From NCBI GenBank assembly GCA_945861435.1, contig CAMAUX010000010.1, positions 1 to 36,483 on the forward strand: a DNA stretch of 36,483 bases. Direction: 5' to 3'. Under the pieces are notes generated by a model, which saw only the letters and a program-made list of their open reading frames with translations, was not told the origin of the DNA and did no database searches. Source of the stretch: Chthoniobacter flavus. Its GTDB lineage: Bacteria; Verrucomicrobiota; Verrucomicrobiia; Chthoniobacterales; Chthoniobacteraceae. Position numbers and translations under genes: made by a program. Below, one piece after another: positions 175-27,616 of the stretch. The stretch's first letter is position 1. The number at the start of each line of letters is the position of its first letter.

Positions 175-286
175 GGTCTCAGGGGGCTGCCTCGCTACAG
201 TGTCCGATATCCAACAAAAAACGTCAGCAGAGTTACATCGCGGCGCGGGTTATCCTTCATGCGAGCCTAACGCCGCGTCCCAACCC

Positions 287-3200
287 ATGAAGCTCTTCAA
301 ATTCCCCGATCGTCTTCTTACAACCCTTGTTCTCTGGATCCTGCTTTCCTGTGCAGGCTGGGCGTTGGATCAAGGGCCGCTGCTCTCGCCGAAGGACGCG
401 GTATCAAAAATGACTGTTCCAGATGGATTCGCCGTCGACATCCTGGCAAGCGAACCCGACTTGGTACAACCGATCGCTTTCTGCTGGGACGAGCGAGGGC
501 GTCTTTGGGTGGTGGAGGGCAACACTTATCCCACACGCGCCGGCGAGCCCCCCACACCGAGGCCGGACGACGATCCGCAGCTCGACACGCTGACCTCCGA
601 AGAAAAGGCCAGTCTGTTTGGCGGCTCCGATCGCATCCTGATTTTCTCCGATGAAGACGGGGACGGCGTTTATGAAACGAGAAAAGTCTTTTTGGAGAAT
701 CTAAATTTGGTGTCAGGAATTGAGGTCGGTTTTGACGGCGTCTATATTGGGGCAGCACCGTATTTTCTCCACATACCATTGGATGCCTCCGGCGATAAAC
801 CGGCGGGCGCGCCGCGTGTGCTCGCGGACGGGTTTGGTTGGCAGGACACCCATGAAACGTTGAATTCGTTTATCTGGGGCCCCGATGGCTGGTTGTATGG
901 CTGCCACGGCGTCTTCACCCAGTCTCAAGTGCGTGTGTGTACGGGGCCGGTCGGAACAAGAAACCGCACTCCCATGAACTGTGCCTACTGGAGATGGCAT
1001 CCCGTGCGCCAAGTGTTTGAGTTATTTGCACAAGGCACCTCCAACCCGTGGGGGCTGGATTACAACGCAAAGGGCCAATTCTTTTCGGAAGCCTGCGTGA
1101 TTCCGCATTTCTGGCATGTCATCCCAGGGGCGTATTACCTGCGCCAGGGGATTCCGTTGGGCCACTTCAACCCCTACGTATACAAAAATATCGAAACGAT
1201 TGCCGACCACACTCATTTCTCGGATGGCAAACCGGTTATGGGGCAGGAAGCAAACAAGGGAGCCTCCGACGAGTTTGGCGGCGGGCACGCCCACTGTGGC
1301 TTGCTTATCTACGACGGGCTCAACTTCCCCGCCAAATATCGTGGGCAGCCGCTGCTTGGAAATATTCACGGCAAGCGAATCAATCAGGAGCAACTCATCC
1401 CTGAGGGTTCGGGGTACAAGGCCTCCCATGGGCCTGATTTCCTGAAGGCCAATGACTTCAATTTTACAGCGGTAACCCTCAAGCAGGCGCCGGACGGCTC
1501 AGTCGTGTTTAGTGATTGGTACGACCGGCAGAAGTGCCATTCTAGGAACACCGAAATTTGGGACCGTACCAATGGCCGGCTCTACCGCGTCAAGTACGCC
1601 GCTAATTGGAAGCCGTGGAAAGCGACTCCCGGGATTTGGGAGCCCGCGTCCACATTGGAATTGCAGCTTCAGGAAAACGGTTGGTTGAGCCGGACGGCAC
1701 GCCGCAAAATTGAGGAAGCCGCAGCGCGCGCGCCAATTGATGCGGGCTTAATCCAGCGGGCAAGAGAACTGGTTAAGTCTCAAGAGTCGGCGGAGGTCCG
1801 GATGCGTTTAATGTGGTGGCTGTTTTCCACGAATGCCGCCGAGAACACCGAGGTTTGGCGGGAGCGCCTGAGGGATTCCGACGCCGATGTGCGGCAATGG
1901 GCTGTGCGCCTGAGCGTCCAGCAGGGGCCAGTCGGCGAAGGGCTGGTGCGTGAGTATGAGCGTCTCGCGAAAGAGGATCCCTCGCCAGTAGTGCGTTTGG
2001 CGTTAGCGAGTGCTTTGCAAAGCCTCCCCTCGCCCTTGCGCTGGGGGCTGGCCGCGGCACTCCTGCAGCATGCGGAGGATCAGGCAGATCACAATTTGCC
2101 CCAAATGCTCTGGTATGGGTTGGAGCCAGCGGTTCCAGAAAACCCAGCCAAAGCGGTCGAAGTGGCGAAGGCGTCGCGGTTGGAATTGCCAACGGCATTG
2201 GTAGTGCGCCGCATTGCGGAACTGCGCAATGATACATCGAATGCTCTCCTATTAGGAGCGATGACACAGGCGGAGTCGGCTGCGGAAGCGAGGCGTTTCT
2301 TGGGACCGCTCGCAGAGTCTTTGCAAGGGCGGTTCAAAGTCCCCGCGCCTCAGACATGGTCAGCGGCGTATCAGCGGGTTGGCGTCTTGATTGCGAATGT
2401 GCAGGAGAGTGAAGTCCGCGAGGGTTTGCTCGATGCGCGAACCGCCGTCGGGGCGGCATTGAATGATGCAAAGGCCTGGCAAGAGCTACGCACGCTCGCA
2501 GAGGATCCGAAGGCTGGTTTGGGGCGTCGTCAGAGGGCCTTGCAAACGCTGGCCTCTGGTGGTGATGCGGCACTGGGCGACCTGCTGCTCCGTTTGCTAG
2601 GAGATGCATCCATGCGCATGGAAGTCCTGCGTGCAGGGGCGACCTTGTCCGTGGGCAGTGCAACAGAAGCCAGAGCCTTGCCGGCTTTTTTTAAAGCGGT
2701 CTTAGACCAATACCCGTCGCTTAATCCGAAAGAAAAATCCGCGGCTCTCCAGATCTATTCGGGGCGGATTGCAACGGCCAACTTGCTCATGGATGCCGTG
2801 GAGGCGAGGACGGTTTCCTTTCGAGACCTCTCGATGTACGTCGCGCGCCAGATTGCGAACCTCAAGGATGGGGCGCTTTCCCAGCGTGTGGAGAAGCTTT
2901 GGGGTAAGGTGGACGTTTCCAATACCGGAGCGAAGGCGGCGGCGGCGGCGAAAGAGCATGCGCGCTTGAAGGCGATCCTTACTCCCAATTACGTGAAAAC
3001 GGCCGACCTCCAAAAGGGGCGCGTCTTGTTTCAAAGCATCTGCGGGCAATGCCATCAACTCTTTGGAGAGGGTGGGAAAATTGGTCCAGACCTGACTGGG
3101 TCTAACCGCGCCGATTTGGACTACATCCTAGAAAACGTCACGAATCCGAGTGCGGTCATCGGAAAAGACTACGAATTGCACATCTTCACGCTCATGGACG

Positions 3201-4801
3201 GCCGCGTGGTAAGCGGCATGGTGCGCGCCGAAGACAATCAACTCATCACGGTTCAGTCCCCCACGGGCGAGGAACGGGTGCGTAAGTCGGACGTGCGTTC
3301 GGAGGAAAAACCGGGGATTTCCATGATGCCGGAGGGGCTTTTCGGCGCTTTGTCGAAGGAGCAAATGCGGGATCTGGTAGGTTATCTTAAAGTTCCGCAA
3401 CAGGTCTCGCTTGCGGGCGAAGCGCAAAAGCCGGCTGGGACTGGATATCGCGTGGAGGGGGCATTGGAGGCGGAGACGTTCAAAATATTACAGGTGCCGG
3501 GCGTGGCCACGGTGCAGGCGATGGGCGGGTTTAGGGATGGGGTATTTTCCGGGGATTCGCAGCTATTCTGGCGACGGGCGAAAGTTGGCGACGTTTTAAA
3601 GTTGGAAGTGCCAATCAAAGTGGCGGGCAAATTCCGCGTGCGCGCCGCCTTTTGCCGTGCGCCTGATTACGGGATCATTCGTGCGCGGTTTGCGGGGCGC
3701 GAGATGGAGCAGGGCGAGATGGATTTGTTTGGCTCAAAGGTGTCCAATACCGAGGCACTGGTGCTTGGCGTTGCTGAAATTGCCAGCCCTGGAACCGCAG
3801 TTTTGGAGCTTGAGCTGAGGGGAAAAAACGCGGCGTCATCAAACTTTGGCGCAGGCATTGACTATCTGCTTTTGGAAGCCGTGGATGCGAAAGGTGCGGC
3901 ACCTGCGCCTGCTGCGCCCGTATCAAAACCAGCGGCGCCAGCGGCCAAACAAGAAGCAGCGCGTCCTCCGGTAGCGAACCGAAAAAACATCGTCATGGTG
4001 GCGGGGAGACAGAGCCACGGGCCCGGAGCGCACGAGCATAATGCGGGTGTATTGCTCTTGAGCAAATGCCTCAGAGAGGGGGCGAACGCACAGGTAGAAA
4101 TGCGACTCCATCTCAACGGAGGCTGGCCTGCGCAGGAAGAACTCGACCGCGCCGACACACTGGTCGTCTATGCGGATGGATTTAACGGACATCCAATTCT
4201 TCAGGACAATCACCTCGAACAGGTCCGTGCCATGATGAAGCGCGGCTGTGGTCTGGTTTGCCTCCATTGGGCAACAGAAGTCCCTCAAGATCGGGGCGGA
4301 GCCGAATTTCTGGAATGGCTCGGGGGCTATTGTGACCCCGCTTGGAGCGTGAATCCGCATTGGACCGCCGATTTCTCCGAGTTCCCCACCCACCCTATCA
4401 GTCGCGGGGTACGCCCCTTTTCTACAACGGACGAGTGGTACTTCCACATGCGCTTTTTGGAGGGCATGCGCGGCGTGACGTCCTTGCTCTCAGCCGTGCC
4501 GCCTGAGTCGACAATGAGCCGTCCCGATGGGATGCGCTCTGGAAATCCGGCGGTGCGCAAAGCGGTGGCGGACAAGTTGCCGCAGTCGGTGGCTTGGGCC
4601 GTGGAGCGCGCGGATGGTGGCCGCGGATTCGGATTTACCGGCGGGCACTTCCATTCCGGCTGGGGCAATAACGACCAGCGCAAACTGATGCTTAACGCAA
4701 TCCTATGGACCGCCAAGGGCGAGGTGCCAGCCGAGGGAGTCGCATCCACAGTGACTCCCGAAGACCTCACCGTGAATCTGGACCCGAAGGGAAAGAAGTA
4801 G
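287..4801 (+). CDS. exported PVC dehydrogenase/heme protein fused to a ThuA domain
   Basis: A 1504-residue secreted protein. The ATG at 287 is preferred because a good signal peptide (MKLFKFPDRLLTTLVLW..., cleavage near GWA-LD) starts there; the frame is open further upstream only because it runs through a transposase relic. Residues about 35-430 match the PVC 'putative membrane-bound dehydrogenase' beta-propeller (TIGR02604 type). About 500-900 is helical and HEAT-like. C919-GQC-H923 is a c-type heme site in a TIGR02603-type domain. Residues about 1055-1200 form a probable beta-sandwich, followed by an Ala/Pro-rich linker (about 1202-1228). About 1233-1485 is a ThuA (trehalose-utilisation, glutamine-amidotransferase-like) domain starting NIVMVAGRQSHGPG. 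The family is thought to oxidise sugars or polyols outside the cytoplasm with electrons leaving through the heme; the substrate is unknown. The gene converges on the sulfatase array with an 85-bp gap. Confidence 0.88.
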   Translation: MKLFKFPDRLLTTLVLWILLSCAGWALDQGPLLSPKDAVSKMTVPDGFAVDILASEPDLVQPIAFCWDERGRLWVVEGNTYPTRAGEPPTPRPDDDPQLDTLTSEEKASLFGGSDRILIFSDEDGDGVYETRKVFLENLNLVSGIEVGFDGVYIGAAPYFLHIPLDASGDKPAGAPRVLADGFGWQDTHETLNSFIWGPDGWLYGCHGVFTQSQVRVCTGPVGTRNRTPMNCAYWRWHPVRQVFELFAQGTSNPWGLDYNAKGQFFSEACVIPHFWHVIPGAYYLRQGIPLGHFNPYVYKNIETIADHTHFSDGKPVMGQEANKGASDEFGGGHAHCGLLIYDGLNFPAKYRGQPLLGNIHGKRINQEQLIPEGSGYKASHGPDFLKANDFNFTAVTLKQAPDGSVVFSDWYDRQKCHSRNTEIWDRTNGRLYRVKYAANWKPWKATPGIWEPASTLELQLQENGWLSRTARRKIEEAAARAPIDAGLIQRARELVKSQESAEVRMRLMWWLFSTNAAENTEVWRERLRDSDADVRQWAVRLSVQQGPVGEGLVREYERLAKEDPSPVVRLALASALQSLPSPLRWGLAAALLQHAEDQADHNLPQMLWYGLEPAVPENPAKAVEVAKASRLELPTALVVRRIAELRNDTSNALLLGAMTQAESAAEARRFLGPLAESLQGRFKVPAPQTWSAAYQRVGVLIANVQESEVREGLLDARTAVGAALNDAKAWQELRTLAEDPKAGLGRRQRALQTLASGGDAALGDLLLRLLGDASMRMEVLRAGATLSVGSATEARALPAFFKAVLDQYPSLNPKEKSAALQIYSGRIATANLLMDAVEARTVSFRDLSMYVARQIANLKDGALSQRVEKLWGKVDVSNTGAKAAAAAKEHARLKAILTPNYVKTADLQKGRVLFQSICGQCHQLFGEGGKIGPDLTGSNRADLDYILENVTNPSAVIGKDYELHIFTLMDGRVVSGMVRAEDNQLITVQSPTGEERVRKSDVRSEEKPGISMMPEGLFGALSKEQMRDLVGYLKVPQQVSLAGEAQKPAGTGYRVEGALEAETFKILQVPGVATVQAMGGFRDGVFSGDSQLFWRRAKVGDVLKLEVPIKVAGKFRVRAAFCRAPDYGIIRARFAGREMEQGEMDLFGSKVSNTEALVLGVAEIASPGTAVLELELRGKNAASSNFGAGIDYLLLEAVDAKGAAPAPAAPVSKPAAPAAKQEAARPPVANRKNIVMVAGRQSHGPGAHEHNAGVLLLSKCLREGANAQVEMRLHLNGGWPAQEELDRADTLVVYADGFNGHPILQDNHLEQVRAMMKRGCGLVCLHWATEVPQDRGGAEFLEWLGGYCDPAWSVNPHWTADFSEFPTHPISRGVRPFSTTDEWYFHMRFLEGMRGVTSLLSAVPPESTMSRPDGMRSGNPAVRKAVADKLPQSVAWAVERADGGRGFGFTGGHFHSGWGNNDQRKLMLNAILWTAKGEVPAEGVASTVTPEDLTVNLDPKGKK

Positions 4802-4886: not shown

Positions 4887-6794
4887 TTAAAAATCCCAGC
4901 GAGTGGACTTGCCGGCTTCAGGCTTCACATTGATCCAGTCAATATCCACAGGCTCACTCGCGTGCGGCAAATAAATGCGCAGGATAGCCGCTCCGCCTTT
5001 GTTTGGGAGGTCCACGTCGATTTCCCGCCAGTCACCGCCTTTGAGGGTGTAGGCGAATTTAAGCAGTTCCTCCGGTTTGGCGTTAGCCTTCGGTAAAAGT
5101 TCAATAGAGCCTTCCCCGCCGCTTGCGGCTTTCATCCGAAAGCTGATTTTCGCGGGGCCATTGAGATTTGCTCCAATGCCAAGAAAAGGCGCGGTTCCCG
5201 TACCGGTGGCAGTGAGAATTCCGTCCTTAATGGCCGCAGCGCAATTGCGGTTTTTCCAGGCCGCAAGCGGCTCGTCTCTGGCGACCGGAGCTTTGCCATG
5301 ATTGGGGTTCAGCTTTGGAACCACGGCTTCTGTGTCCTTTAGAAACCCACTGATGAGATCGTTAAGTTCACGGACGAGTTCGGGTTTTTCTCCCGCAAGA
5401 TTATGTTGTTCGCCGAGATCGTTCTTCAGGTCGTAGAGTTCGAGTTCGTCAGAACCGTCGTCATTGCGTGCGTAGAACCGGATGAGCTTCCAGTCGCCCT
5501 TGCGGACGTAGGTGCCGGCGTAGAAACCGTCCATGACCGAGTCGCGCTTGGCATCGCCGTGCGGGAAATGACAGAAGATGCGGTCGCGGGCCGAATCGCC
5601 GCCGAGCAGAGCCTGAGACTGGTCAAGGCCGTCGAGCTTGAGATCGGCGTGCGGCTTGAGGCCGACGCAGGAGAGTAGCGTCGGGTAGAAGTCGACCGAC
5701 TGGAAAAGGATGTCGCTGGTGGCGGCGGCTTTGGCCTTGCCCGGCCAGGCGAAGATGAACGGCTCGCGTGTGCCACCCTCGTAGAGGGAGGCCTTGCCGC
5801 TGCGCAAGGGGCGATTGCTGGTCGCCGGGATGTCGCTGTAACCTTCCGGATCGGTCTTCCTGGGGGGGTAAGAGTAGCCGCCGTTGTCGGAATAGAAGAC
5901 AATGATCGTGTTGTCGGCGATACCTGCGTCGTCGATTGCCTGCAGGATCCGACCGACGCCGTCATCGAGGCTTTTCACCATCGCAGCGTAGAGGGCGTTG
6001 TGCTGCGGATTCTTCGGGTCGGCCTTGGCCTTAAAATGCTCGATGTAATCCGCGCGCGCATTCCAAGGGGAGTGCACGGAATAAGCCCAGTAATTGAGGT
6101 AGAAAGGCTGGTCCTTGTGCGCCTGAATGTACTTGGCAGCCTCCTTGGACATGCGGTCTTCGATGTGCATTCCGACCTCGTCCGTGATCGTGGGATCTTT
6201 GATGAACTTCCAAGGGGCAAGATAGCCGCCGCCGCCGGGGCCTGACGCATTTGGAGCGTGAGGGAAGTCCGAGTCGAACCCTTGGTCCATCGGCTCGTAG
6301 TGGTCGGCGGGCTTGAGGTTGTGGCCGAGGTGCCACTTACCGAAGTGCGCGGTGGCGTAGCCGGCTTCCTTCAAGGCTTCGGCCAAGGTGAAGTATTCTG
6401 GCTTCAGACGCGTCAGGCTGTTGGCATCGAGTAGGCGGACTTTACCGTTCTCGTTCTTGGCGAGGCGTTTCTCGAGCTGCACCGTCGGCAGATGGCAGAC
6501 TGGCGCCGTGATGCCGGTGCGGGCTGGGTATTGCCCCGCGAGGATGCTGGATCGAGTCGGAGAGCAGAGCGGGCTTGCGGCGTAGGCTTGTGTGAAACGG
6601 GTGCCGCGCTTGGAGAGGCGGTCGATGTTCGGCGTCTCGTAGAAGGTGCTGCCGAAGCAACCGAGGTCGTGCGCGCCAAGGTCGTCGGCGAGAATGAATA
6701 CGATGTTTGGCTTTTCGTTTTTCTTTTCAGCGGCGGTTAGCACTGCCAGGGGAGTCAGCAGCAGGGCCGTGAGGAGTGTGAAGCTGTGTTTCAT
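4887..6794 (-). CDS. secreted sulfatase A with C-terminal beta-sandwich
   Basis: A 635-residue formylglycine-dependent sulfatase. The start at 6794 gives the signal peptide MKHSFTLLTALLLTPLAVL, which matches the leaders of sulfatases B and C; an adjacent in-frame ATG at 6797 is equally possible. Metal-binding DD lies at residues 37-38 and the catalytic motif is C77-S-P-T-R81, where Cys is converted to formylglycine. HFGKWHLGH follows near residue 150 and the late metal site is in FYSDNGG. After the sulfatase fold there are about 115 extra residues with beta-strand character ending in DIDWINVKPEAG, resembling a carbohydrate-binding or galactose-binding-like module. It probably removes sulfate esters from a glycan in the periplasm or outside the cell. 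No maturase (FGE or anSME) is in the window. It is the last gene of the minus-strand array and follows a sulfatase tail relic by 22 bp. Confidence 0.93.
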   Translation of the reverse strand: MKHSFTLLTALLLTPLAVLTAAEKKNEKPNIVFILADDLGAHDLGCFGSTFYETPNIDRLSKRGTRFTQAYAASPLCSPTRSSILAGQYPARTGITAPVCHLPTVQLEKRLAKNENGKVRLLDANSLTRLKPEYFTLAEALKEAGYATAHFGKWHLGHNLKPADHYEPMDQGFDSDFPHAPNASGPGGGGYLAPWKFIKDPTITDEVGMHIEDRMSKEAAKYIQAHKDQPFYLNYWAYSVHSPWNARADYIEHFKAKADPKNPQHNALYAAMVKSLDDGVGRILQAIDDAGIADNTIIVFYSDNGGYSYPPRKTDPEGYSDIPATSNRPLRSGKASLYEGGTREPFIFAWPGKAKAAATSDILFQSVDFYPTLLSCVGLKPHADLKLDGLDQSQALLGGDSARDRIFCHFPHGDAKRDSVMDGFYAGTYVRKGDWKLIRFYARNDDGSDELELYDLKNDLGEQHNLAGEKPELVRELNDLISGFLKDTEAVVPKLNPNHGKAPVARDEPLAAWKNRNCAAAIKDGILTATGTGTAPFLGIGANLNGPAKISFRMKAASGGEGSIELLPKANAKPEELLKFAYTLKGGDWREIDVDLPNKGGAAILRIYLPHASEPVDIDWINVKPEAGKSTRWDF

Positions 6795-6816
6795 CATTAT
6801 ATTTCTTTGATGACAT

Positions 6817-6948
6817 TCAATCAAGCCGGCGGGCACTCACGTAATAGGCACCGCAGATCTCTTTGCCCTGATCGTCGAGGAAGGTACCGCAGAGCAAAGT
6901 CTGCCCCTGCTTGAGGGAGACGTTGAACACGGCAATCGTATCGTTCTG
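6817..6948 (-). pseudogene. sulfatase C-terminal tail relic
   Basis: Forty-three codons plus a stop are open with no start. They encode QNDTIAVFNVS near the beginning and GKEICGAYYVSARRLD at the end. This matches the C-terminus encoded at 10344-10500, apart from scattered substitutions, and also the last residues of the relic at 8501-8869. Similarity stops abruptly at the Gln codon around 6948; the bases between there and the stop of sulfatase B (7000) are unrelated. It is a stranded 3' end of an arylsulfatase-type gene lying just upstream of sulfatase A. Confidence 0.8.
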
Positions 6949-6999
6949 GGGCCAAAAGTGTCTGTCCCCTGCGACTCCTCACTATCCACCAGAGGGGTT

Positions 7000-8487
7000 T
7001 TAGTCGGTAAGGCCAAGGTAATGTCGATACCATCGTTTTTCCTCATCATTGAGCAGGTGATCGGGATCGCCGGGCGGAGCAAGCCGGCTGGTCCAGTCGG
7101 AAAGTTTCGCAGCCAAGTCGCGCGCGATCTCAGGATGCCCGATGATGAGATTGTGTTTTTCATGCTCATCGCTGGTCACATCGAAGAGGTAATTCGTTTC
7201 GTTGCCGACGTGGATATATTTCCATTTCCCGTTGCGCACGGCCGCCTGGTTCCAGAATCGCCAATAGAGCGCGGCGTGCGGCGGTTGAGAGACTTCGCCG
7301 GTCAGGTGCGGGATGAGGTTAACCCCATCCAACCGTTCATCGGCTGGCAAACCCGCCAGCGCCACGGCGGTGGCGGCGATATCGAGAGTGCTGACCGGCT
7401 GATTGTAAATTTTACCGGCCGGCAACCTTCCCGGCCAGCACATGATGAATGGCACGCGTATGCCACCTTCTGTGAGCATCCCTTTCTCGCCGATCCACGG
7501 ATCGTTCAGCGAACCATCCCAATCAGCGCTAGACTTGTTCACCGGCAGTAAATCCGCCTTGGGCTTCCCACGAGCAGCCGCGAGCGGCGCCCCGTTGTCA
7601 GACGTGAAAAAGAGGAGCGTATTGTTATCGATATTATATTGTTTGAGCGCGTCAGTAATTTGACCGACACCGTCATCAATCGCGGAAAGCATCGCTAGGG
7701 CGTGGCGGCGGCGTTCGGGCATCTCTCCGGGGAATCGGGAGAGATATTTCTCGGGGGCCTCCAGCGGCACATGCGGACCGTAATAAGCCAGATACAGGAA
7801 GAATGGCTGGTCGTGGTGGCGCTTGAGGAACGCGAGCGCGGCGGCAGTTTGCGTTTCCAGCCGATACCCGGGCTGTTTAACGATGGTGCCGTGCGGATCC
7901 AGCGTCTTGCCGTCGCAATCGAACGTGGCGAAGTAGCTGTGCTCCTCGCCCTGGAAGCATTCATCAAATCCCTGTGCCAGAGAGGAATACATTTTATAAT
8001 ATTGTCCGGGAATCTCCACTCGACCGTTTTTGCTGGGCGTGAGGCCGGGCAGATTTTTGCGCGCCCACTTGACGGAGGTTGCGTTGGGTTCGAGATGCCA
8101 TTTACCAACCTGCCCACTGACATAACCCGCTTTTTTCAGTCGTTCGGGAATCGTCTGCTCCTCCAGCGGCATTGGATCATCGGCGATGTTGTCGAGACCG
8201 AACTTCTGTTGATAGCGTCCAGTGATCAAACCGGCCCGCGAGGGGCTGCACTGCGGTGCGGTGACGTAACCGGCGGTCAGGCGCACGCCCTGCCCGGCGA
8301 GGGAATCAAGGTTTGGCGTTTTGATGTCGGGAACCTGGCGTTGGCAAGACAAGTCTGCATAGCCTTGATCATCCGTCAAAATGACGATGATGTTGGGCTT
8401 TCCTGCAGGCCTCGGTGCATCAGCAGCGTGCAGCACTGCCAAGGGCGCCAGCAGCAGGGTCGTGAGGAGTGTGAAGTTGTATTTCAT
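7000..8487 (-). CDS. secreted sulfatase B
   Basis: A 495-residue sulfatase. The ATG at 8487 is chosen because the leader MKYNFTLLTTLLLAPLAVL follows and a GAGAAG Shine-Dalgarno-like stretch lies about 6 bases upstream; the frame opens 10 codons earlier without a better start. Motifs: metal-binding DD at 39-40, catalytic C80-S-P-S-R84, GQVGKWHLE near residue 125, and FFTSDNGAP for the late metal ligands. Length is normal for a single-domain S1-family sulfatase with no extra C-terminal module. It probably desulfates a glycan outside the cytoplasm. Its start sits 13 bp after the stop of the deleted sulfatase at 8501-8869, inside the repeated tail-leader module shared with sulfatase C. Confidence 0.93.
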   Translation of the reverse strand: MKYNFTLLTTLLLAPLAVLHAADAPRPAGKPNIIVILTDDQGYADLSCQRQVPDIKTPNLDSLAGQGVRLTAGYVTAPQCSPSRAGLITGRYQQKFGLDNIADDPMPLEEQTIPERLKKAGYVSGQVGKWHLEPNATSVKWARKNLPGLTPSKNGRVEIPGQYYKMYSSLAQGFDECFQGEEHSYFATFDCDGKTLDPHGTIVKQPGYRLETQTAAALAFLKRHHDQPFFLYLAYYGPHVPLEAPEKYLSRFPGEMPERRRHALAMLSAIDDGVGQITDALKQYNIDNNTLLFFTSDNGAPLAAARGKPKADLLPVNKSSADWDGSLNDPWIGEKGMLTEGGIRVPFIMCWPGRLPAGKIYNQPVSTLDIAATAVALAGLPADERLDGVNLIPHLTGEVSQPPHAALYWRFWNQAAVRNGKWKYIHVGNETNYLFDVTSDEHEKHNLIIGHPEIARDLAAKLSDWTSRLAPPGDPDHLLNDEEKRWYRHYLGLTD

Positions 8488-8563
8488 GATTACTTCTCTT
8501 TCATGGAACGTCAGCAAGATAGCGGACGCTTACGTAACAGGCGCCGCAGATTTCCTTGCCCTG
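8443..8563. repeat. sulfatase tail-leader module, copy B
   Basis: This direct repeat contains, on the minus strand, the last codons of one sulfatase, a 13-bp gap with the ribosome-binding site, and the signal-peptide codons of the next. Bases 8443-8501 are identical to 10286-10344 (59 bp), and similarity continues to about 8563 at roughly 95%. A more diverged third copy spans about 6735-6948. Confidence 0.85.
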
Positions 8564-8869
8564 ATTCGCGCCGATGGGATTGAACTCAAAACCGAACCGC
8601 GTCTGAAAACGCCCAGTCATCAGTGCCGCACGCGAGGCCGCGCAAAACGGTGCGGTGACATAGCCGCTCGTGAATTGCGCCCCACTCGCCGCGAGTGCGT
8701 CGATCTGCGGCGTCGGGATGTCTTTCCCACCATAGCAACCGAGTTCGCCGCAACCAAGGTCGTCAACGTCGATGAAGATGGCATTGGGGCGGTGCTCGGC
8801 CGACGCGGAAACTCCAGCGAGTGTCAGGGCAGCGATGCCTGCTGTAAGTAAGTGGCGTATGGGTCTCAT
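8501..8869 (-). pseudogene. internally deleted mini-sulfatase (122 residues)
   Basis: The frame begins like a normal sulfatase: a signal peptide (MRPIRHLLTAGIAALTLAGV), then DVDDLGCGELGCYGG and a C76-A-A-S-R80 active-site motif of the allowed C-x-A-x-R type, followed by ALMTGRFQTRFGFE. At about residue 101 it jumps directly to NQGKEICGACYVSVRYLAD, the extreme C-terminus of the arylsulfatase type encoded at 10344. About 300-400 internal residues, including the late metal ligands, are missing, yet the frame is intact. It cannot be an active sulfatase as read. A deletion between sulfatase genes or within one is the simplest explanation. It is annotated as a pseudogene, although a short secreted protein could still be made. 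Confidence 0.82.
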
Positions 8870-8905
8870 CGGTTCGTTCTTGGTTAGGTTGTCGTGAGGG
8901 CGGCA

Positions 8906-10330
8906 TCACTGTCCCGAAACTGGGACGCGGCCCACGGGGCGGCGGTTCTTGCCCTTCTGGTTGGTGGCGGAGTCACCAATGTCGTCGCGCATCCTCTTCG
9001 CTAGAGCACGCAGGCGCGCCGCAACCTCTGGGTATTTTCCAATCACGTCCGTGGTCTCGCCCACGTCCGCTGCGAGATCGTAGAGCGCCTCTGGCAGAAG
9101 TGCCTCCTTCGCGGCTCCCTGCTTCCGCTCATACGGGGTGTCATCCATTGCAGTGCGCGGGAACACGAGCTTCCAGTTCGCGCTGCGGACCGCCTCGAGC
9201 TTCTCCCGGTTGTAGTAGAAGAACGCGTCGTGAGGACTCGGCGCACCGGGCTTGGTCATCAGCGGGAGAATGTCCTTTCCATCAATGATCCGGTCCTGCG
9301 GAGGCTGCGCTCCGGCGATGCCGGCCACGGTGGGCAGGACGTCCATCGCGGAGGCGATCTCGCGGCAGACGAGGCCGGCGGGGATTCGGCCCGGCCAACG
9401 CATAAGGCAAGGAACACGCACGCCGCCCTCCCGCGTGGTCGCCTTGGCCGCCCGCAGGGGGAAGGCTTGGCCGCGCTTGTCGTGGGGTCCGCGCGTGTCC
9501 GGCCCATTGTCCGAGGTGAAGACCACGAGTGTCCGGTCTGCGAGCCCGGTTTCGTCCAGGGCCTTCAGGACCTCGCCCACGCCCCAGTCCATGCATTCGA
9601 CGACGTCCCCATACAAGCCCCGCGCCGATTTGCCCCGGAAGCCGTCGGAGACGTGCAACGGGAGGTGCGGTGCGCTGTAGGCGAGATACAGTAAGAACGG
9701 TTGGTCGCGTTTCGCCCGTACGAACTTCACCGCCTCTTCCGTGAACTGCTCGGTGAGCGTCTTCTGGTCGGGGTGCGGATCGATGACCGTTTCGTCGCGG
9801 TGGAGGACAAAGGGTTTCATGTCGTTGGGGAACATCATCCCGTAAAACGCGTCGAAGCCATGCTGGCGCGGGGAGAATGGGGCCAGGTGGCCGAGGTGCC
9901 ACTTGCCGACGCAGGCGGTGGCGTAGCCGCGTTCCTTCAAGATCTCAGCTAGGGTGACCTCGTCGGGGTTCAGCCCCTCCAGGTGCGTTTCGTAGAGTAC
10001 GCCGGCGCCTTTGGGTCCGAAGCTGGACATGCCCACCCGCACCGGGTGACAGCCGGTCATGAGTGCTGCGCGGGACGGGGTGCAGACGGAGGACGGAGCG
10101 TAGTAGTCGGTGAACCGGGCGCCCTCGGCGGCGAGCCGGTCGATGTTTGGTGTCAGGATCTTCTCGAAGCCTGGGCGGTTGTCCGGCATCCAGTAGCATC
10201 CGACGTCGTCGTAGCCGAGGTCATCGGTGAGAATGACGATGACGTTAGGTTTGGCGCCGACATCCGCAGCGGTTAGCGCTGCCAGGGGCGCCAGCAGCAG
10301 GGTCGTGAGGAGTGTGAAGTTGTATTTCAT
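8906..10330 (-). CDS. secreted sulfatase C
   Basis: A 474-residue sulfatase. The ATG at 10330 is chosen because it opens the leader MKYNFTLLTTLLLAPLAAL, shared with sulfatase B, with a GAGAAG ribosome-binding-site-like stretch just upstream; the frame extends 61 codons further but reads antisense-like sequence over the upstream relic. Motifs: DD at 36-37, catalytic C83-T-P-S-R87, VGKWHLGH near residue 135, FTSDNGPD for the late metal ligands, and REGGVRVP. The predicted product is a periplasmic or secreted sulfate-ester hydrolase. Its first codons, leader and upstream junction are nearly identical to those of sulfatase B while the catalytic bodies differ. It follows the C-terminal relic of another sulfatase by 13 bp and is followed, after 36 bp, by the deleted mini-sulfatase. 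Confidence 0.93.
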   Translation of the reverse strand: MKYNFTLLTTLLLAPLAALTAADVGAKPNVIVILTDDLGYDDVGCYWMPDNRPGFEKILTPNIDRLAAEGARFTDYYAPSSVCTPSRAALMTGCHPVRVGMSSFGPKGAGVLYETHLEGLNPDEVTLAEILKERGYATACVGKWHLGHLAPFSPRQHGFDAFYGMMFPNDMKPFVLHRDETVIDPHPDQKTLTEQFTEEAVKFVRAKRDQPFLLYLAYSAPHLPLHVSDGFRGKSARGLYGDVVECMDWGVGEVLKALDETGLADRTLVVFTSDNGPDTRGPHDKRGQAFPLRAAKATTREGGVRVPCLMRWPGRIPAGLVCREIASAMDVLPTVAGIAGAQPPQDRIIDGKDILPLMTKPGAPSPHDAFFYYNREKLEAVRSANWKLVFPRTAMDDTPYERKQGAAKEALLPEALYDLAADVGETTDVIGKYPEVAARLRALAKRMRDDIGDSATNQKGKNRRPVGRVPVSGQ

Positions 10331-10406
10331 GATTACTTCTCTTTTATGGACCGTCAGCAAGATAGCGGACGCTGACGTAATAGGCGCCGCAGATCTCCTT
10401 CCCCTG
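10286..10406. repeat. sulfatase tail-leader module, copy C
   Basis: Partner of the repeat at 8443-8563; 59 consecutive bases are identical and about six differences fall in the remaining 62. The module holds the C-terminal codons of the relic sulfatase, the ribosome-binding site and the signal peptide of sulfatase C. Further right, the tail also matches 6837-6948. Confidence 0.85.
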
Positions 10407-11495
10407 ATCGTCGAGGAAGGTACCGCGGAGCATGGTCTGCCCCGGCTTGGGGGAGACGTTGAACACGGCGACCGTATCGTTCTGAGCCACTTCTTTTCCA
10501 CCATTAAACTCACCTACGCTCAGCCGCGCCTTCACAATGGGAAAGGCCTTGCCAACGGGAAGTCGGTGGTTACCGAGCACGGAGTCCCAGGCGGGCACCG
10601 TGCCGCAGATGGCGGTATTCGCCTCCTCCGGCCATCGGCGGAGAGCGATTTCGTAGCGACCGTCGCGCGCCACTTGGATGAAACACTAATCCATAGTGTA
10701 GGTGCCTTTGCGCACCATTTCTGGAGAGAGACCTTTCTGCTCGTATTGCGTCGACGGCACCAGCGTGGACGGATTTTCATGGTCGTCGCCTACGATGATG
10801 GCGCTGCGCTTGGTCGTCCATGGCTCCACGTCTTTCCACCATTGCGCATAGGCTGCGCGCAGCTTCGCGACAATCTGTGGCTGTTTGGCGCTCACATCCT
10901 TCTGTTGGCCCGGGTCGGTGGCAAGGTCATGTAATTCGCGTTCCACCAGACGCCAGCGGCCCCACATGACGGCCAAAGGTTTTTGCGCGGGATCAATGCC
11001 TGTGGCGGCTTTCCGGGGATAGCCGTGTTGAACAACCAATATCCGGTCAGGCGGCTCCTGCCCGGCTTCTTGGATCACTGGCGCGAGGTTGATACCATCA
11101 AATTTGGCCCCAAGCGTTTGCTTCAGGCCGCACAGCCCGATCAGCGTCGGCACCAGATCCTGCACCTCTGTTAGGCCGGACACTTCGCCCGGCGGCCGCA
11201 GTCCGCCGGATGGCCAACGGACAAACAACGGTGAGCGATGGCCGCCCTCCCAGGGCGTCGCCTTGCTGCCGCGCATCCCGGCGTTGTAGAGGTCCGACAT
11301 GTTGGCGGTGCCGTTATCATGGAGAAACATCAGGATCGTGTCCTCGCGCAGACCTGACTGGCGGAGGAAGGCGTCCAGCCGCCCCATGTTCTCATCCACA
11401 TTGGCCAGCATGCCGAGGATTTGCCGATGGTTTGGTTTCTGGTCCTTGTAGGGCTCGCAATATTTTTCCGGCACAATCAGCGGAGTATGGACCAA
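10344..11495 (-). pseudogene. truncated arylsulfatase with in-frame stop
   Basis: The frame starts abruptly around VHTPLIVPEKYCEPYK, the middle of an arylsulfatase, and continues through MLANVDENMGRLDAF, FLHDNGTANM and GGHRSPLFVRWP to GTYTMD. A TAG at 10686-10688 then interrupts it. The same frame resumes CFIQVARDGRYEIALRRWPE and runs to GAYYVSVRYLAD, a recognisable sulfatase C-terminus. The signal peptide, metal-binding DD and CxPxR are all absent because the gene is cut at about 11496. Beyond that point lies unrelated sequence ending in a plus-strand protein fragment. It is a dead gene that probably contributed the repeated C-terminal tail seen at the other sulfatase junctions. Confidence 0.85.
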
Positions 11496-11500
11496 GGGTA

Positions 11501-11602
11501 ACGGGCGCTGATCTTGTGAACTGGACGCGGGTTCAAAGTAATACGGTGCCGATCAATGGGCTGCCCGCCGACAAGGCCTTTGTGCGGATCCGTGCGAAGT
11601 GA
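11501..11602 (+). pseudogene. C-terminal fragment of an exported verrucomicrobial protein
   Basis: The plus strand reads GADLVNWTRVQSNTVPINGL, then ADKAFVRIRAK and a stop. The D-L-V-N-W-T and K-A-F-V-R-I-R pattern is a frequent C-terminal beta domain of large secreted proteins in Verrucomicrobiota. The rest of that gene is missing, because immediately upstream the opposite strand carries the truncated sulfatase. The two broken genes meet head on at about 11496-11501, marking a rearrangement breakpoint. Confidence 0.65.
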
Positions 11603-15730: not shown

Positions 15731-16140
15731 GACCACGGTCGCCGCGCGCCAGAGGCGCCACGCTGTTGCCGAAAGTCAGGCCGCTCATGGGCGGCGTGAA
15801 ACACCGCTCATTGGTCTTAACCCGGGCGCGAAGCGCAACAGCAACGACACAGGATCCGGGGCCCGCCTCTTTCCCTGCTTGGTGCCGTTGCTTGGTGTGA
15901 GAAACTGCGCCCAAAGCTCACACAAAGCACCAGGGCACCAAGAGACGAAGAAGCCCGCGGATGACTAAAGCAATCGCTCCAACGTGTGCAGTCAGCGGTC
16001 CGCGCTCATCGAAAGCGGACGCTTTGTGTTCAGGCATTTCTCCACCGCGCGGGCACGCTGGGAACACGCACCCCACAAAGGAGGGGGTTTCTCCGAATGC
16101 CGGACTCGCGCACGATATGATGCTTCCACTTCTTCCCCGC
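15731..16140. other. gene-free stretch, about 410 bp
   Basis: No supported gene. It contains copy 2 of the CTCACACAAAG element at 15917-15942 and the upstream region of the large PSCyt/PSD gene. The frame of that gene is open back to 15961 but has no protein-like character before the signal peptide. A GGAGGGGG run near 16080 is not followed by an in-frame start at useful spacing. Confidence 0.5.
15917..15942 (+). repeat. dispersed CTCACACAAAG element, copy 2
   Basis: CTCACACAAAGCACCAGGGC followed by ACCAAG matches copy 1 at 11611-11637 with a one-base gap and a few changes. It lies downstream of the RES toxin, as copy 1 lies downstream of a plus-strand frame end. Confidence 0.5.
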
Positions 16141-19100
16141 ATGAACTCCCTCCCGACTTTGGGCGGCCTCGCTGGCCGCTGGCTCCGTCCATTCCCCGTG
16201 CTGTTTGCCGGTCTTTTCCTTCTTCCGGCGGGGTTGACTACGGCGGGTGCGGCTGAGGATGGAGTGAGCGGTCCGGTGAGCTATTTCCGGGATGTCCGCC
16301 CGATTTTTCAAGCGAACTGCCAGGGATGTCACCAGCCCTCGAAGGCCAAAGGCGGTTACGTGATGACGGACTTCAAGAAGCTGCTCAGTGGCGGCGACAA
16401 GGACGGCGCGGCGGTGGTTCCCGGAGACGCATCGAAGGGATCGCTCCTTTCACAGATCACGCCGGAGAATGGCGCGGCGGAGATGCCCAAGAACAAGCCG
16501 CCCCTGCATGAACTCCAGCTCGCGCTCATCCGCCGCTGGATCGCCGAGGGCGCAAAGGACGACACGCCCGCTGATGCGCTTGCCCACTACGACGCCGCAC
16601 ATCCCCCCGTCTATCCACGCCTGCCCGTGGTGCCTTCGATCGACTATTCCGCCGACGGACAGCTCATCGCCGTTGCCGGCTTCCATGAGGTGTTGCTTCA
16701 GAAGGCCGATGGATCGGGCGTTGCCGGGCGCCTGATCGGTCTTTCTCAGCGGATCCAGAGTGTGCGTTTTTCGCCGGACGGTCAGTGGCTCGCAGCGGTC
16801 GGCGGCGACCCGGCGCGGCTCGGTGAGGTGCAGGTGTGGGAGGTCGCCACTCGCAAGCTGAAGCTCTCGCTGCCTGTCGGATGGGACACGCTCAACGGCG
16901 TGAGTTGGTCGCCCGACAGCCAGTTCCTTGCATTCGGAGCCGCGGACAACACGGTGCGCGTGATCGAGGCGCAGTCCGGGAAGCAGCTCCTGCAGATGGG
17001 TTCCCACAATGACTGGCCTCTCGAAACGGTCTTCTCGCTCAAGGGCGATCACGTGGTCTCCGTGGCGCGGGACATGACGGTGAAGCTCAGCGAGGTCCCC
17101 GCGCAGCGCTTCGTCGACAACGTCACCTCCATCACCCCGGGCGCTCTGCGCGGTGGCATCGACAGCGTCGACCGGCATCCTTCCAGCGACGTCGTCGCGG
17201 TCGGCGGCGCCGACGGCCAGCCCCAGCTCTTCCAGATCTTCCGCACCGCTCCGCGCAAGATCGGCGACAACGCCAATCTCGTGAAGAAGTACGAGCCCAT
17301 GCTCGGCCGCGTCAGTGTCGTCCGCTTTTCCAAGGACGGATCCAAGCTCGCCGCCGCCAGCGCACTCGATGGCGCGGGTGAACTCGCCTTGTTCTCCGTG
17401 GGCAAGGACTTCGTTGGTTCGCAGCGCATCCAGACCCTTCGCGCCAAGCCAGGCAAGGACCGCACCGGTCCCGAAGCTGCAGAGCTTCAGGTGTTCGAGG
17501 ATCAGTTTGGAAAGCGGGAGGTGGACGCCAAGCTCTCCGCCAGCATCTACGCGCTCGCGTTTCATCCGGACGGCCAGTCCGTCGCGGTGGCCGGGAGCGA
17601 TGGCAAGATCCGCGTGTACGATGCCGCCAGCCTTCAGGTCCGCAACGAGTTTGGCGCCGCGCCGCTCCAGCAGGATGCGAAGCCGCGCACCGGACGCACC
17701 ATCGCCCGCGCAACGCCGGACCTCGCGGTGGCGGAGGGCGAAGTGCTGCCGTCTGCGGATCAGGTGACCGGCCTTGAGGTGACGCCTGCGGTGGTCGAAA
17801 TCGGCCGCCCGAACGACTACGTGCAGTTGCTCATCACCGCGAAACTCAGCACCGGCGAGACGGCGGACGTCACGCGCGCCGCGAAGATCGATCAGGGCGG
17901 CGGCCTTCTCAAACTCGCCGCCCGCGGCCTTGCGCGGCCCGTTCGCGATGGGAAAGGGGATCTGTCCGTGTCCTTCGCGGGTCGCACGGTGAAGGTTCCG
18001 GTGAGCGTGGCAGGCGCCTCGCAGCCTGTGCAGGCGGACTTCATCCGCGATGTGAATCCGGCGATGACCAAGCTCGGCTGCAACGCCGGTGCGTGCCATG
18101 GATCGAAGGACGGCAAGGCCGGGTTCAAGCTTTCCCTCCGCGGTTACGATCCGATCTTTGACGTTCGGTCGCTGGCCGACGAACGCGCTGCACGCCGCAT
18201 CAATCCTTCCTCTCCGGACGACAGCCTCATGCTGTTGAAAGCCGTGGCCGAGGTGCCGCACGAGGGCGGGCGCCGTTGCGAGACGGGCGATCTTTCCTAC
18301 CAGATCCTGCGCCAGTGGGTCGCCTCGGGTGCGCGACTCGACCTCAAGGCTTCGCGTGTGAGCCGCATCGAGGTGCAGCCACTCAACCCGGTTATCGGCC
18401 AGGCTGGCAGCCGCCAGCAGATGCGGGTGGTAGCCACCTACCCGGATGGTTCGGCGCGAGACGTCACGGCCGAGGCTTTCCTCGAGACCGGCAACGCCGA
18501 TGTGGCCAGCGTGGATGCAGCGGGTCTCGTGCAGACCCTGCGCCGCGGCGAAGCGCCGATGCTGGTGCGTTTCGAGGGCAATTACGCCGCGACCACCGTC
18601 ACCGTGATGGGCGACCGGAAGGGGTTTGAATGGCAGACGCCGCCTGCATGGGGTCGCATCGACGAACTCGTCGCCGCCAAGTGGCAGCGGATGAAGATCG
18701 CCCCGTCCGACGTCTGCACCGACGGCGAATTTCTGCGACGCGTATCGCTGGATCTCACGGGTCTGCCGCCCTCCTCCGACAAGCTCCGCGCCTTCATCGC
18801 TGACAAGCGCCCTGTGCAAGAGAAGCGGGCCGCGGTGGTGGATGAGCTCATCGGTTCACCGGCCTTCGTTGAGCACTGGACGAACAAATGGGCCGACCTT
18901 CTGCAGGTGAACCCGAAGTTCCTTGGTGCGGGCGCGGCGAGCTTCCGCACATGGATTCGCGGGCAGGTGGAGAAGAACACGCCGTACGATCAGTTCGTGC
19001 AGGCGATTCTCACGGCCGAGGGCTCCAACTTTGAAAACCCGGCGGCGAGTTACTGGAAGATCCTGCGCTTGCCTGCCGAGGCGATGGAGAACACCACGCA

Positions 19101-21261
19101 TCTCTTCCTCGCCACCCGGTTCAACTGCAACAAGTGCCACGACCATCCGTTTGAGCGCTGGACCCAGGACCAGTATTACCAGACTGCCGCCTACTTCGCG
19201 CAGTTCAACCTCGCCGAGGATGGCGCCAACGGAAAAGGCCAGCGCATCGGGGGCACCGCGGTGGAAGGCGCCAAGCCGCTCTACGAGAAGGTCGTCGAGA
19301 ATCCCAAGGGCGAGATGAAGCATGATCGCACCGGCGCCGTCACTGAGCCGAAGTTCCCGTTCCCGGCCAAGGCCGCCGTGGATGGGGCCGCGCCGCGTCG
19401 CAAGCAGATGTCGGCGTGGCTGACTTCGCCGGACAACCGTTACTTCGCTGCGAGTTATGCCAACCGCATGTGGGGTTACCTGCTCGGGCGCGGACTCATC
19501 GAGCCGCTGGACGACATCCGGGCCGGCAATCCGCCGAGCAATCCGGAGTTGCTTGAGCATCTCACGCAGACCTTTGTCCAGAGCGGGTTCAACGTGCGCA
19601 CGCTGCTGCGCACGATCTGCACGTCGCGCACGTACCAGCTCGCCATCCAGACCAACCGCTGGAACGAGGACGACACCGTCAATTACTCCCATGCGGTTGC
19701 GCGCAGGCTTCCCGCCGAGACGTTGTTCGATGCCGTGTTCAAGGTGACCGGCGCTGACTCCGCTCTGAAGGACGGTCGGGCCACGGGTCTTGTGGACAGT
19801 GCAGGGGATGTGAGCACCTTCCTCGCGACGCTTGGCAAGCCCGTGCGCGAGAGCGCCTGTGAATGCGAGCGCAGCAATGATCTGGGGCTCGGTTCTGTCA
19901 TGGCCCTGCTCAGCGGACCCACCGTCTCCAACGCCATCCAGAATCCGAAGAACGCACTGGCCAAGCTCACCACCGAGGAGAAGGACGACGCGCGTCTCAT
20001 CAGCGAACTCTTCCAGCGCGTGCTCTCGCGCGAGGCCACGCCGAAGGAGGTCGACGCCACCCGCAAGCTCCTCACCCAAGTGGATGTGGACCAGCAGAAG
20101 GTCGCCGCTTCTCTCGAAGCCAAGGAAAAGGAGCAGGCCCCCATCATCGCACGGATGGAGAAGGAGCGTCTCGAGGCGATCGCGGGCGCAGAGAAGAACC
20201 TTGCGGGTTACGAGGCCACCACCAAGTTCTACCGCGACGAACGCGAGAAGGCTCGCAAGGAACGCGAGGCGGCCGCCGTCGCCGCGCTCAAGGGATGGGA
20301 CGCCGCGCAGGACGCGCGGGTTGCTGGTTTCCTTGCATCCACCCATCCTGAAAAGGAGGCTCTGCGCTGGACGCAGCTCACACCGATGGAAGCGAAGACC
20401 GTCGGCGGCCAGGCCAAGCTGGCGATTGAGAAGGATGGCTCTGTGACCTCGACCGGCGGCCTTCAAGCCACCACCTACGAGCTCTCGATCGAGACTGGCC
20501 TCGCTCAGATTAGCGGCATCTTGCTCGAAGTTCTGCCAGACGCCGCGGAAGCGGAGTTCGGCCCCGGCCGCGCCAAGAACGGCAACTTCATCCTCACCGA
20601 ATTCACCGCCTCAGTCGGCAAGATGGGCAACCCGGCCGAGACCGCCGCGCGCTTCAAGGCTGCGTGGGCGGACTTTTCCCAGGACAAGTTCCCAGTTGCC
20701 GCCGCGGTTGATGCGAAGGAGGACGAGAACACGAACGGCTGGGCGGTTTCTCCGCAGTTCAGCCGCCGTCATCTTGCGGCGTTCCAATTTGAGCAGCCGG
20801 TGGCTGGGGGCGAGAAGACGCGCCTCAAGTTGCGCCTCATCCAGAAGTCCTCGAACAACTTGGTTGGACGGTTCCGCGTCTATGCCACCACCGCCGCCGA
20901 TCCTCTGGGCGCGGGCGTTCCGGCGCTCGTTGCAGAGGCCGCAGCGGTGGAGGCCTCCGCACGTACGGCTCCGCAGAAGGAGGCGCTCGCGGCGCATGTG
21001 CGCGTGTCCGATCCGGAATACTGGCGTCTCCGGGTGGACGAAGCGCGCGCCAAGACGCCGCTCGCGGCGGACCCTGCGCATGTCGGACTTCAGGAGACCT
21101 TGGCGAAGGCGAAGGAGCCCATCCGTCTGGACCCGGCTCTTGTGCAGCTGCGCGAGGATGGTGCGGCGAGCAAGGCGCAGGCGGCCAACAAACGGCTCAC
21201 CGTGGTGCAGGACTTGACGTGGGCCCTCATCAACAACCCCGCCTTCCTCTTCAACCGATAA
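16141..21261 (+). CDS. giant PSCyt1-WD40-PSCyt2-PSD1 heme protein
   Basis: A 1706-residue exported protein; the ATG at 16141 opens a signal peptide ending near TTAGAA-EDG (an alternative ATG lies 8 codons upstream). Order: PSCyt1 cytochrome with C60-QGC-H64; a WD40-like propeller, about 165-500, with repeated SPDGQ/HPDGQ blades; an Ig-like domain, about 541-625; a second heme-type site C647-NAGA-CH, spaced CX4CH as in [10 protein letters not shown] of this family; a second Ig-like domain, about 739-822; PSCyt2/DUF1549, about 837-1050, with C996-NKC-H1000; PSD1/DUF1553 from about 1089. An insert at about 1310-1682, a charged coiled coil plus a probable beta-sandwich, splits PSD1 before its final [14 protein letters not shown]. 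These PVC proteins are of unknown biochemistry, presumed periplasmic and linked to polymer breakdown or electron transfer. The DUF1501 partner follows after 40 bp. Confidence 0.93.
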
Positions 21262-21301
21262 TCGTTTACAACTCGAAACTCCCCCCAGACCCCCAACTCC
21301 T

Positions 21302-22768: not shown

Positions 22769-22863
22769 GATCGGCGCGCATCTGCGTCTCCAAGTGACGA
22801 GCGGCGGCAGCCGGCGTTCAAGGCTGCGCGCAGGCTCGTGGCCCGGCGGTCCGCGCTGGCGTT

Positions 22864-22886
22864 GAAAACGCAGTCGATGCGTTTTC
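22864..22886. terminator. bidirectional terminator hairpin
   Basis: GAAAACGCA-GTCGA-TGCGTTTTC is a perfect 9-bp stem with a 5-base loop. It lies between two convergent genes (stops at 22768 and 22917), and each strand carries a short T run at the 3' side of the stem. It probably ends transcription from both sides. Confidence 0.65.
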
Positions 22887-22916
22887 GCGTCACTGACGGC
22901 CGCGCTCTCCGCACAC

Positions 22917-24164: not shown

Positions 24165-24168
24165 GGCG

Positions 24169-27323: not shown

Positions 27324-27616
27324 GCGGTTGGTGCGCGGCGGCCTGCCTCCATGCGTTGAATCCCTTCCTGTGCCTGCTGCCCCGCCGGGGGCGAGCTTTG
27401 CGTTGCGTTGGAAGGTCATGGGGAAGTCAGGTCTCAGGAGTGAACCGGGGGCGCGGCTGTCCCTTAGGCGCGGACCGTTGTGGGCGTGACTATTTAGTTT
27501 AGCAAGTATCTAGATTTGCGGACGTTGCATGGGGGACGAACGCTGGGCGATTCGGAGGCCATGGAGGGGGATGGCGTTGATGTTCGTGCGTGAAAACGTA
27601 GCTTCACCCTCAATCA

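Follow-up and report, generated by a model that had tools for sequence, protein, structure and literature searches.

In the Vsp/Vlp surface lipoproteins of Mycoplasma, a conserved 5' region and signal peptide are carried by different bodies, and the driving process is site-specific inversion or phase variation of the surface antigens. In the type VI secretion system (T6SS) effector-immunity arrays of Vibrio cholerae, modules are added behind a conserved upstream anchor, possibly through homology-facilitated illegitimate recombination, and earlier pieces persist downstream as an array (PMC5361080). For Planctomycetes, one account states that adjacent sulfatases are mostly dissimilar (averages 26.7-29.0%), and ascribes their tandem order to rearrangement or horizontal gene transfer rather than to recent duplication (PMC4807772). 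Here we analyzed an array of sulfatase genes in a stretch of 36,483 nucleotides from Chthoniobacter flavus (assembly GCA_945861435.1, contig CAMAUX010000010.1), i.e., positions 1-36483 of contig C10 of genome G000, a 5.35-Mb draft genome. The whole stretch is referred to below as the window, and the genome as the source genome.

The sulfatase array is like the V. cholerae arrays in having an upstream anchor, module addition and leftover pieces within the array (PMC5361080). Unlike the sulfatase array, the V. cholerae arrays retain immunity genes as their leftover pieces (PMC5361080); here, the constant part is the tail of the preceding gene plus a signal peptide, and the cargo consists of degradative enzymes. 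With constant-5'/variable-3' loci of the Rhs/T6SS-like kind, the array shares a constant 5' end, a swapped 3' body and displaced fragments, and both body variation in one slot and displaced remnants were found. Unlike in those loci, there is no toxin/immunity, and the constant coding part is only a signal peptide of ~70-80 bp. The window array works like an Rhs/T6SS effector family without being a member of it, the array genes scanned being sulfatases. Its adjacent enzymes are dissimilar and in tandem, as in Planctomycetes, whereas the available portion of the Planctomycetes account describes neither shared tail-plus-leader junctions nor leader exchange (PMC4807772). Unlike integron gene cassettes, no constant recombination site was present at the boundaries examined, and unlike Mycoplasma Vsp/Vlp, no constant site was seen in the sulfatase array.

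We consider it likely, from the sequences compared, that this array evolves by joining existing 5' ends to different enzyme bodies, a 5' end comprising the end of the preceding gene, a ribosome-binding spacer, a start codon and a signal peptide. Comparison between genomes shows the same module with different bodies in one slot, the same body with different leaders, and a repeat-flanked insertion with an uninterrupted form elsewhere. The array, on the minus strand, can be abbreviated X'-Y1-Zf/T-Y2-T-Y3, where T is the tail of gene X and the slash marks a fusion. Its features are as follows.

10344..11504, minus strand: X', a remnant of sulfatase gene X; the N-terminal part is missing, an in-frame TAG lies at 10686-10688, and the 3' end is tail copy 1.
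10261..10484, minus strand: junction copy 1, i.e., X tail, 13-bp spacer and Y1 leader; repeat families D1 and D2.
8906..10330, minus strand: Y1, an intact sulfatase of 474 aa with CTPSR; PF00884 at 1.1e-63.
8792..8960, minus strand: second module, i.e., Y1 3' end, spacer and leader alpha (MRPIRHLLTAGIAALTLAGVSASAE), here before the Z fragment; based on alignment with the Z of L136, the S5 of G012 and the Y3p genes.
8501..8869, minus strand: Zf, a remnant of sulfatase Z whose initial ~100 codons continue in frame into tail copy 2.
8418..8565, minus strand: junction copy 2, i.e., tail, 13-bp spacer and Y2 leader.
7000..8487, minus strand: Y2, an intact sulfatase of 495 aa with CSPSR; PF00884 at 8.1e-55.
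6952..6969, minus strand: GGGGACAGACACTTTTGG element at the joint of Y2 and tail.
6725..6948, minus strand: junction copy 3, i.e., orphan tail (6837-6948), 22-bp spacer and Y3 leader.
4887..6794, minus strand: Y3, an intact sulfatase of 635 aa with CSPTR; PF00884 at 5.4e-57.

A sequence-only reading of this DNA had described three junctions with a common tail-plus-leader module, and all three are present, at 6725-6948, 8418-8565 and 10261-10484. The identity that it gave for 8443-8501 and 10286-10344 spans exactly 59 bp with no base beyond, and the match does extend further (8418-8565 vs. 10261-10408; 148 nt, 92%). Copy 3 is indeed more diverged, being 77% identical to copy 2 (6725-6872) and 87% identical to copy 1 over 127 nt (6822-6948 vs. 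10358-10484). Between the tail stop and the ATG that follows, junctions 1 and 2 have 13 bp, as reported, and junction 3 has 22 bp; the tails end in GKEICGAYYV, GKEICGACYV and GKEICGAYYV, respectively, the third being read from the DNA. That the catalytic bodies differ is borne out by the pairwise identities of Y1, Y2 and Y3 (30.3, 32.6 and 29.5%). Each gene had been said to follow a sulfatase tail: a tail is found three times, but tail 1 alone still belongs to a sulfatase gene, namely the pseudogene X'. Tail 2 forms an in-frame fusion with ~100 N-terminal codons of another sulfatase (Zf). Behind Y2, tail 3 stands as an orphan. Of the proposed cassette shuffling for sulfatase specificity, the shuffling finds support in related genomes, in which different bodies lie behind a retained spacer and signal peptide and module-flanked insertions occur, but nothing points to a dedicated system or to selection for specificity. 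The tail, which had been counted as part of the module, is rather the C-terminus of gene X or its leftovers, travelling with the leader. Leader sharing, moreover, extends beyond the X tail and beyond sulfatases: four leader groups recur on unlike sulfatase bodies, and a related leader stands before other enzyme families.

The slot behind Y1 shows one module with several bodies. There, leader alpha (MRPIRHLLTAxIAALTLAGVSASAE) and its spacer precede Y3p, S5 or Z: Y3p in G034 and L144 and also in G012, in the latter behind a Y1-end fragment; S5 in G012; and Z in L136, with a fragment in the window. Full-length sulfatase bodies behind leader alpha are 24-32% identical, their leaders 94-97% and the 40 bp upstream 82-97%. 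Identity profiles of three pairs in 30-bp bins ran at 87-100% through the leader and then at 40-73%. Between S5 and Z, successive bins fell from 97, 93, 97, 97 and 97% to 47, 50, 47, 43 and 60%, and between Z and the Y3p of L144 from 87, 87, 93, 93 and 90% to 73, 50, 59, 50 and 47%. L144 and L136 can be aligned over 1,966 bp (87%), and they diverge immediately after the leader.

In G012, S5 sits between two 348-bp copies (90.5% identical) of the Y1 end plus leader alpha, and the uninterrupted form without S5 is found in L144 and on contig C150 of G034. A weaker tail-plus-leader repeat (258 bp, 79%) flanks Y2 on contig C11 of G034. Contigs C66 and C165 of G012 have an exact 129-bp end in common; this is consistent with a single continuous array, although it may simply be an overlap left by assembly. 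Joining C11 to C150 of G034 through Y1 was rejected, as the two Y1 copies are merely 88% identical.

Leaders also differ on the same body. Y2 of the window and Y2 of G012 are 96% identical over 1,482 bp with unlike leaders, identity being 42-73% up to base +60 and 93-100% thereafter. For window Y1, the bins from the spacer to +60 were 93, 100 and 83% identical to window Y2, vs. 57-74, 93-97 and 72-83% to Y1 orthologues, the clear difference coming from the spacer bin; behind +60, window Y1 is closer to its orthologues than to window Y2. In L137, a leader and spacer particular to that genome are common, to a varying degree, to X, X2, both Y3p genes and Y1, and Y2 has part of this leader. In L135, a metagenome-assembled genome (MAG) labelled Haliscomenobacter, X and Y1 share a quite different leader (MKNYVGLS...), possibly through leader change after transfer or through mixed binning. 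There were 886 pairs whose bodies were no more than 60% identical; 17 of them combined a leader identity of at least 0.85 with at least 0.80 over the 40 bp upstream (thresholds applied to rounded identity values), and these represent four leader groups.

We then considered the leader across the bacterial family. The consensus leader MKHTFTLLTALLLAPLAALHAAD gave 184 matches (E<=0.05; per-genome counts summed) in 23 of 40 family genomes; its scrambled version had no match in the 40 genomes, an empty result that shows little without a known positive. Order-wide, 24 of 197 genomes matched at E<=0.005, 20 of them belonging to the same family and 4 to a single other one. On contig C12 of G034, ten genes lying within 19 kb begin with the consensus leader, i.e., a GH28, an esterase, three sulfatases, a GH32, three BNR_2 genes and one gene without a Pfam match. 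Enzymes behind a related leader in this family belong to at least six Pfam families, and their leaders share synonymous codons: the same codon was used at 1,228 of 2,310 matched leader residues, vs. 889.6 expected (standard deviation (sd) 23.0, highest 981) from 300 within-gene synonymous shuffles. These shuffles replaced a composition-based null (1,489/2,784 vs. 961.7). The test took one gene from each of 20 clusters whose bodies lack mutual blastp similarity (E<1e-3); the 54 genes clustered were not random, with 51 from 17 stretches picked as leader-dense or already retrieved, and the other three being Y1-Y3. A control of 47 other signal peptides had no clear bias (1,121/3,359 same codon vs. 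1,085.3, sd 25.1), and a smaller one of 15 signal peptides (165/385 vs. 133, sd 10) suggests some positional bias.

The strongest case is a module on contigs C47 of G034 and C34 of G027, in which 400 bp upstream (the upstream limit of the comparison) and the leader together show 80.6% identity, the match stopping at base +69. The module leads into a sulfatase in G034 and into an alpha/beta-hydrolase in G027 and is, judged from the sequences, a tail-plus-leader module whose bodies cannot be divergent duplicates. It is somewhat probable that the ~70-bp signal-peptide leader, often with spacer and preceding gene end, is a recombining unit family-wide, and that unrelated families (sulfatase, GH28, GH32, BNR sialidase-like, esterase and cytochrome-type) acquire it by recombination, so that incoming enzymes become secreted. 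In the open-access literature searched, no paper contained the leader motif, and among the matches listed for leader or signal-peptide shuffling and for sulfatase arrays, none described this pattern. Carriage on plasmids or viruses was considered and rejected: 72,556 plasmid records gave no megablast match, and one viral-contig stretch matched a Y2 pattern, yet no viral contig encodes a relative.

To see what follows the X tail, 57 genomes (source genome included) were searched at the DNA level, with matches, many of them short, in 31; X was also sought in GTDB genomes, giving 15 loci, of which five were already in fetched genomes (repeats removed). We counted 19 X-tail junctions with a readable next gene, setting aside the G016 and G032 contigs that end inside X, the distant L142 (43%) and the unmapped L145 (34%). 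Y1 follows at eight junctions (window, G034, G012, G020, L135, L136, L137 and L144), with the G034 contig holding just the first 39 body codons. At the remaining 11, the tail is followed by Y2 (window and G034), Y3 (window), Y3p (L137, behind a 51% X paralogue), S4 (G032), Z (G028), a GH115-like gene (PF15979; L146), a DDE transposase (contig C57 of the source genome), a protein with another start (L139), or orphan leaders and then other genes (L134 and L138). The leader is not of the window type in L135, L137 and L139; in G032 and G028, the spacer is shared and the leader diverged. In the bodiless leaders (L134:9640-9850 and L138:5235-5430), the signal peptide hits stop after 29 and 20 codons, respectively, as if an enzyme had been excised. 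The synteny check proposed in the sequence-only reading came out both ways: different bodies do occupy the same slot, but the X-Y1 order is still widespread. X-Y1 is the commonest arrangement and probably the ancestral one.

This order bears on plain tandem duplication of one sulfatase, in which bodies would have diverged while gene conversion or constraint kept the ends alike. Such a history is unlikely. It accords with the commonness of X-Y1, with most array members being tandem sulfatases, with the apparently recent homogenisation of junction copies 1 and 2, and with a real duplicate pair in L137 (Y3p-Y3p, 92%). In a tandem array, however, body similarity should be at least as high as end similarity, and behind leader alpha it lies far below that of leaders and upstream DNA; orthologous Y2 bodies have unlike leaders, and duplication cannot yield one module before a sulfatase in one genome and before an alpha/beta-hydrolase in another. 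A single recent tandem duplication without variation, which the sequence-only reading had named as refuting its shuffling proposal, does not describe these data, in which bodies vary in related genomes.

Several joints recur with changing partners. The fused Zf/tail sequence is the same in the window and in G032; it is preceded by Y1 in the window vs. a Y2 fragment in G032, and followed by Y2 vs. S4. At this joint, the parents share at most a base or two (by eye), beside long homologous flanks. The succession of Y2, GGGGACAGACAC element and tail leads into Y3 in the window and into Y1 in G034, with tail breakpoints ~30 bp apart, and may reflect one event later modified, or two events. Remnants displaced within the array comprise Zf/tail, orphan tail 3, the Y1-end fragment of G012, and the orphan leaders of L134 and L138. 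Misjoining of short-read MAG contigs at the shared 59-350 bp repeats would be another source of such joints, and 59 bp falls within the assembly k-mer range; several contigs do end inside the array, and the C66/C165 overlap is exactly 129 bp. We regard an artefact of this kind as quite improbable, given that both joints are found in two MAGs each (G000 with G032 and G000 with G034, although these possibly share samples or assemblers) and that the form without S5 is also seen in two.

The 18-bp element, searched with at most one mismatch in 38 genomes, has 23 copies in G020, four in G012, one each in G016 and the source genome, and none in the other 34. A related GGGGACAGACACTCC lies at the joint of Y2 and Z in G032. 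A transposase associated with repetitive extragenic palindromic (REP) sequences was rejected as driver, since no G020 contig with an element copy holds a Y1_Tnp match. A dedicated site-specific system, integron-like or invertase-like, that moves bodies has in its favor the modular look and the element at two kinds of joint, but is very improbable, as breakpoints vary (immediately downstream of the signal peptide, within Z, within the Y1 end, past the element), no element-bearing G020 contig has a Y1_Tnp match, and no recombinase domain was found among the 18 window open reading frames (ORFs) scanned with Pfam (104 of at least 100 aa in the window; attC not sought).

X' covers the Pfam Sulfatase model at positions 175-300 only and is 93% identical in DNA to an intact X carried by contig C57 of the source genome. 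The latter ends in the same tail, the one further tail copy of this genome (88%); besides C57, the genome gave four short matches (33-47 bp) to the leader portion. Where related X genes reach that far, their homology to X' breaks off near one base, 11504, upstream of which the DNA has no match, marking this base, by homology, as a sharp truncation point. Directly behind the intact X of C57 lies a DDE transposase with DUF4372 (L061:5231-6487, minus strand), and the C57 homology to window junction 1 stops at the start codon. Because X is intact with its tail on C57 and a pseudogene in the window, tail 2 is fused and tail 3 is an orphan, the tail appears to be mostly a passenger or scar, the useful part being spacer, start and signal peptide.

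Y1, Y2 and Y3 all exceed the Pfam cut-off for PF00884 and carry the CxPxR motif, which classes them as formylglycine sulfatases; the Z fragment (8501-8869, minus strand) has CAASR where CxPxR is usual. The best solved matches, which are matches and not substrate assignments, were steryl-sulfatase and arylsulfatase A for Y1, an exo-4S kappa-carrageenan sulfatase for Y2 and an S1_16 kappa-carrageenan sulfatase for Y3. The source genome contains 63 PF00884 matches, fragments among them. Convergent to the array is a DUF7133/ThuA/cytochrome c gene (200-4801, plus strand), which runs in the same direction as the sulfatases on G034 C150 and G012 C165; the difference in orientation suggests a local rearrangement. 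Large planctomycete-type cytochrome/DUF1549/DUF1553, DUF1501, DUF1552 and DUF1592 genes occupy 15961-27419 of the window.

In the joining of 5' ends to different bodies that we favor, incoming or sister DNA would pair through the 150-350 bp of tail-plus-leader homology, or alternatively through the leader and the conserved [KR]PN(I/V) motif that follows it. Homologous stretches of 150-350 bp at gene starts are long enough for RecA-type pairing. A crossover there, combined with a far-side join of the homologous or illegitimate type, would add, remove or replace a body, either by homology-facilitated illegitimate recombination or by unequal crossover between modules. The new gene would retain the resident start site and export signal, and tails, gene fragments and orphan leaders would be left as scars. 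One module crossover with an illegitimate join elsewhere would yield a repeat-flanked inserted body, in-frame fusions of leader and body, and scars. The likely route on this sequence evidence is homologous recombination with its anchor in the tail-plus-leader DNA and an illegitimate far-side join; both the route and any selection of the variation are inferences.

Some observations weigh against this account. Y1 lies directly behind X at 8/19 junctions, and colinearity of L136 with the window extends over X-Y1-Z (2,948 bp at 91.7%), a full-length Z being in the corresponding position after X-Y1; much of what is seen is therefore conserved synteny. The background of the pair-identity measure is high (mean 0.68 for different bodies and 0.72 for same bodies), for which reason weaker leader pairs were left uncounted. 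Nearly all sequences are draft MAGs, compared without reads, and several contigs (e.g., G034 C11 and G012 C66) end within the array, so any single gene order could be a chimera. The relatives compared are different species rather than strains of one species.

Taken together, the finding of the leader joined to different bodies in this group of environmental bacteria (Verrucomicrobia) suggests a swapping in and out of secreted sulfatases, and apparently of other enzymes as well, with the export signal being reused. If true, a reusable start-plus-export module would offer a simple route to immediate expression and secretion in the turnover of large sulfatase repertoires, and the N-termini and operon neighbours of such enzymes may differ in history from the catalytic part.

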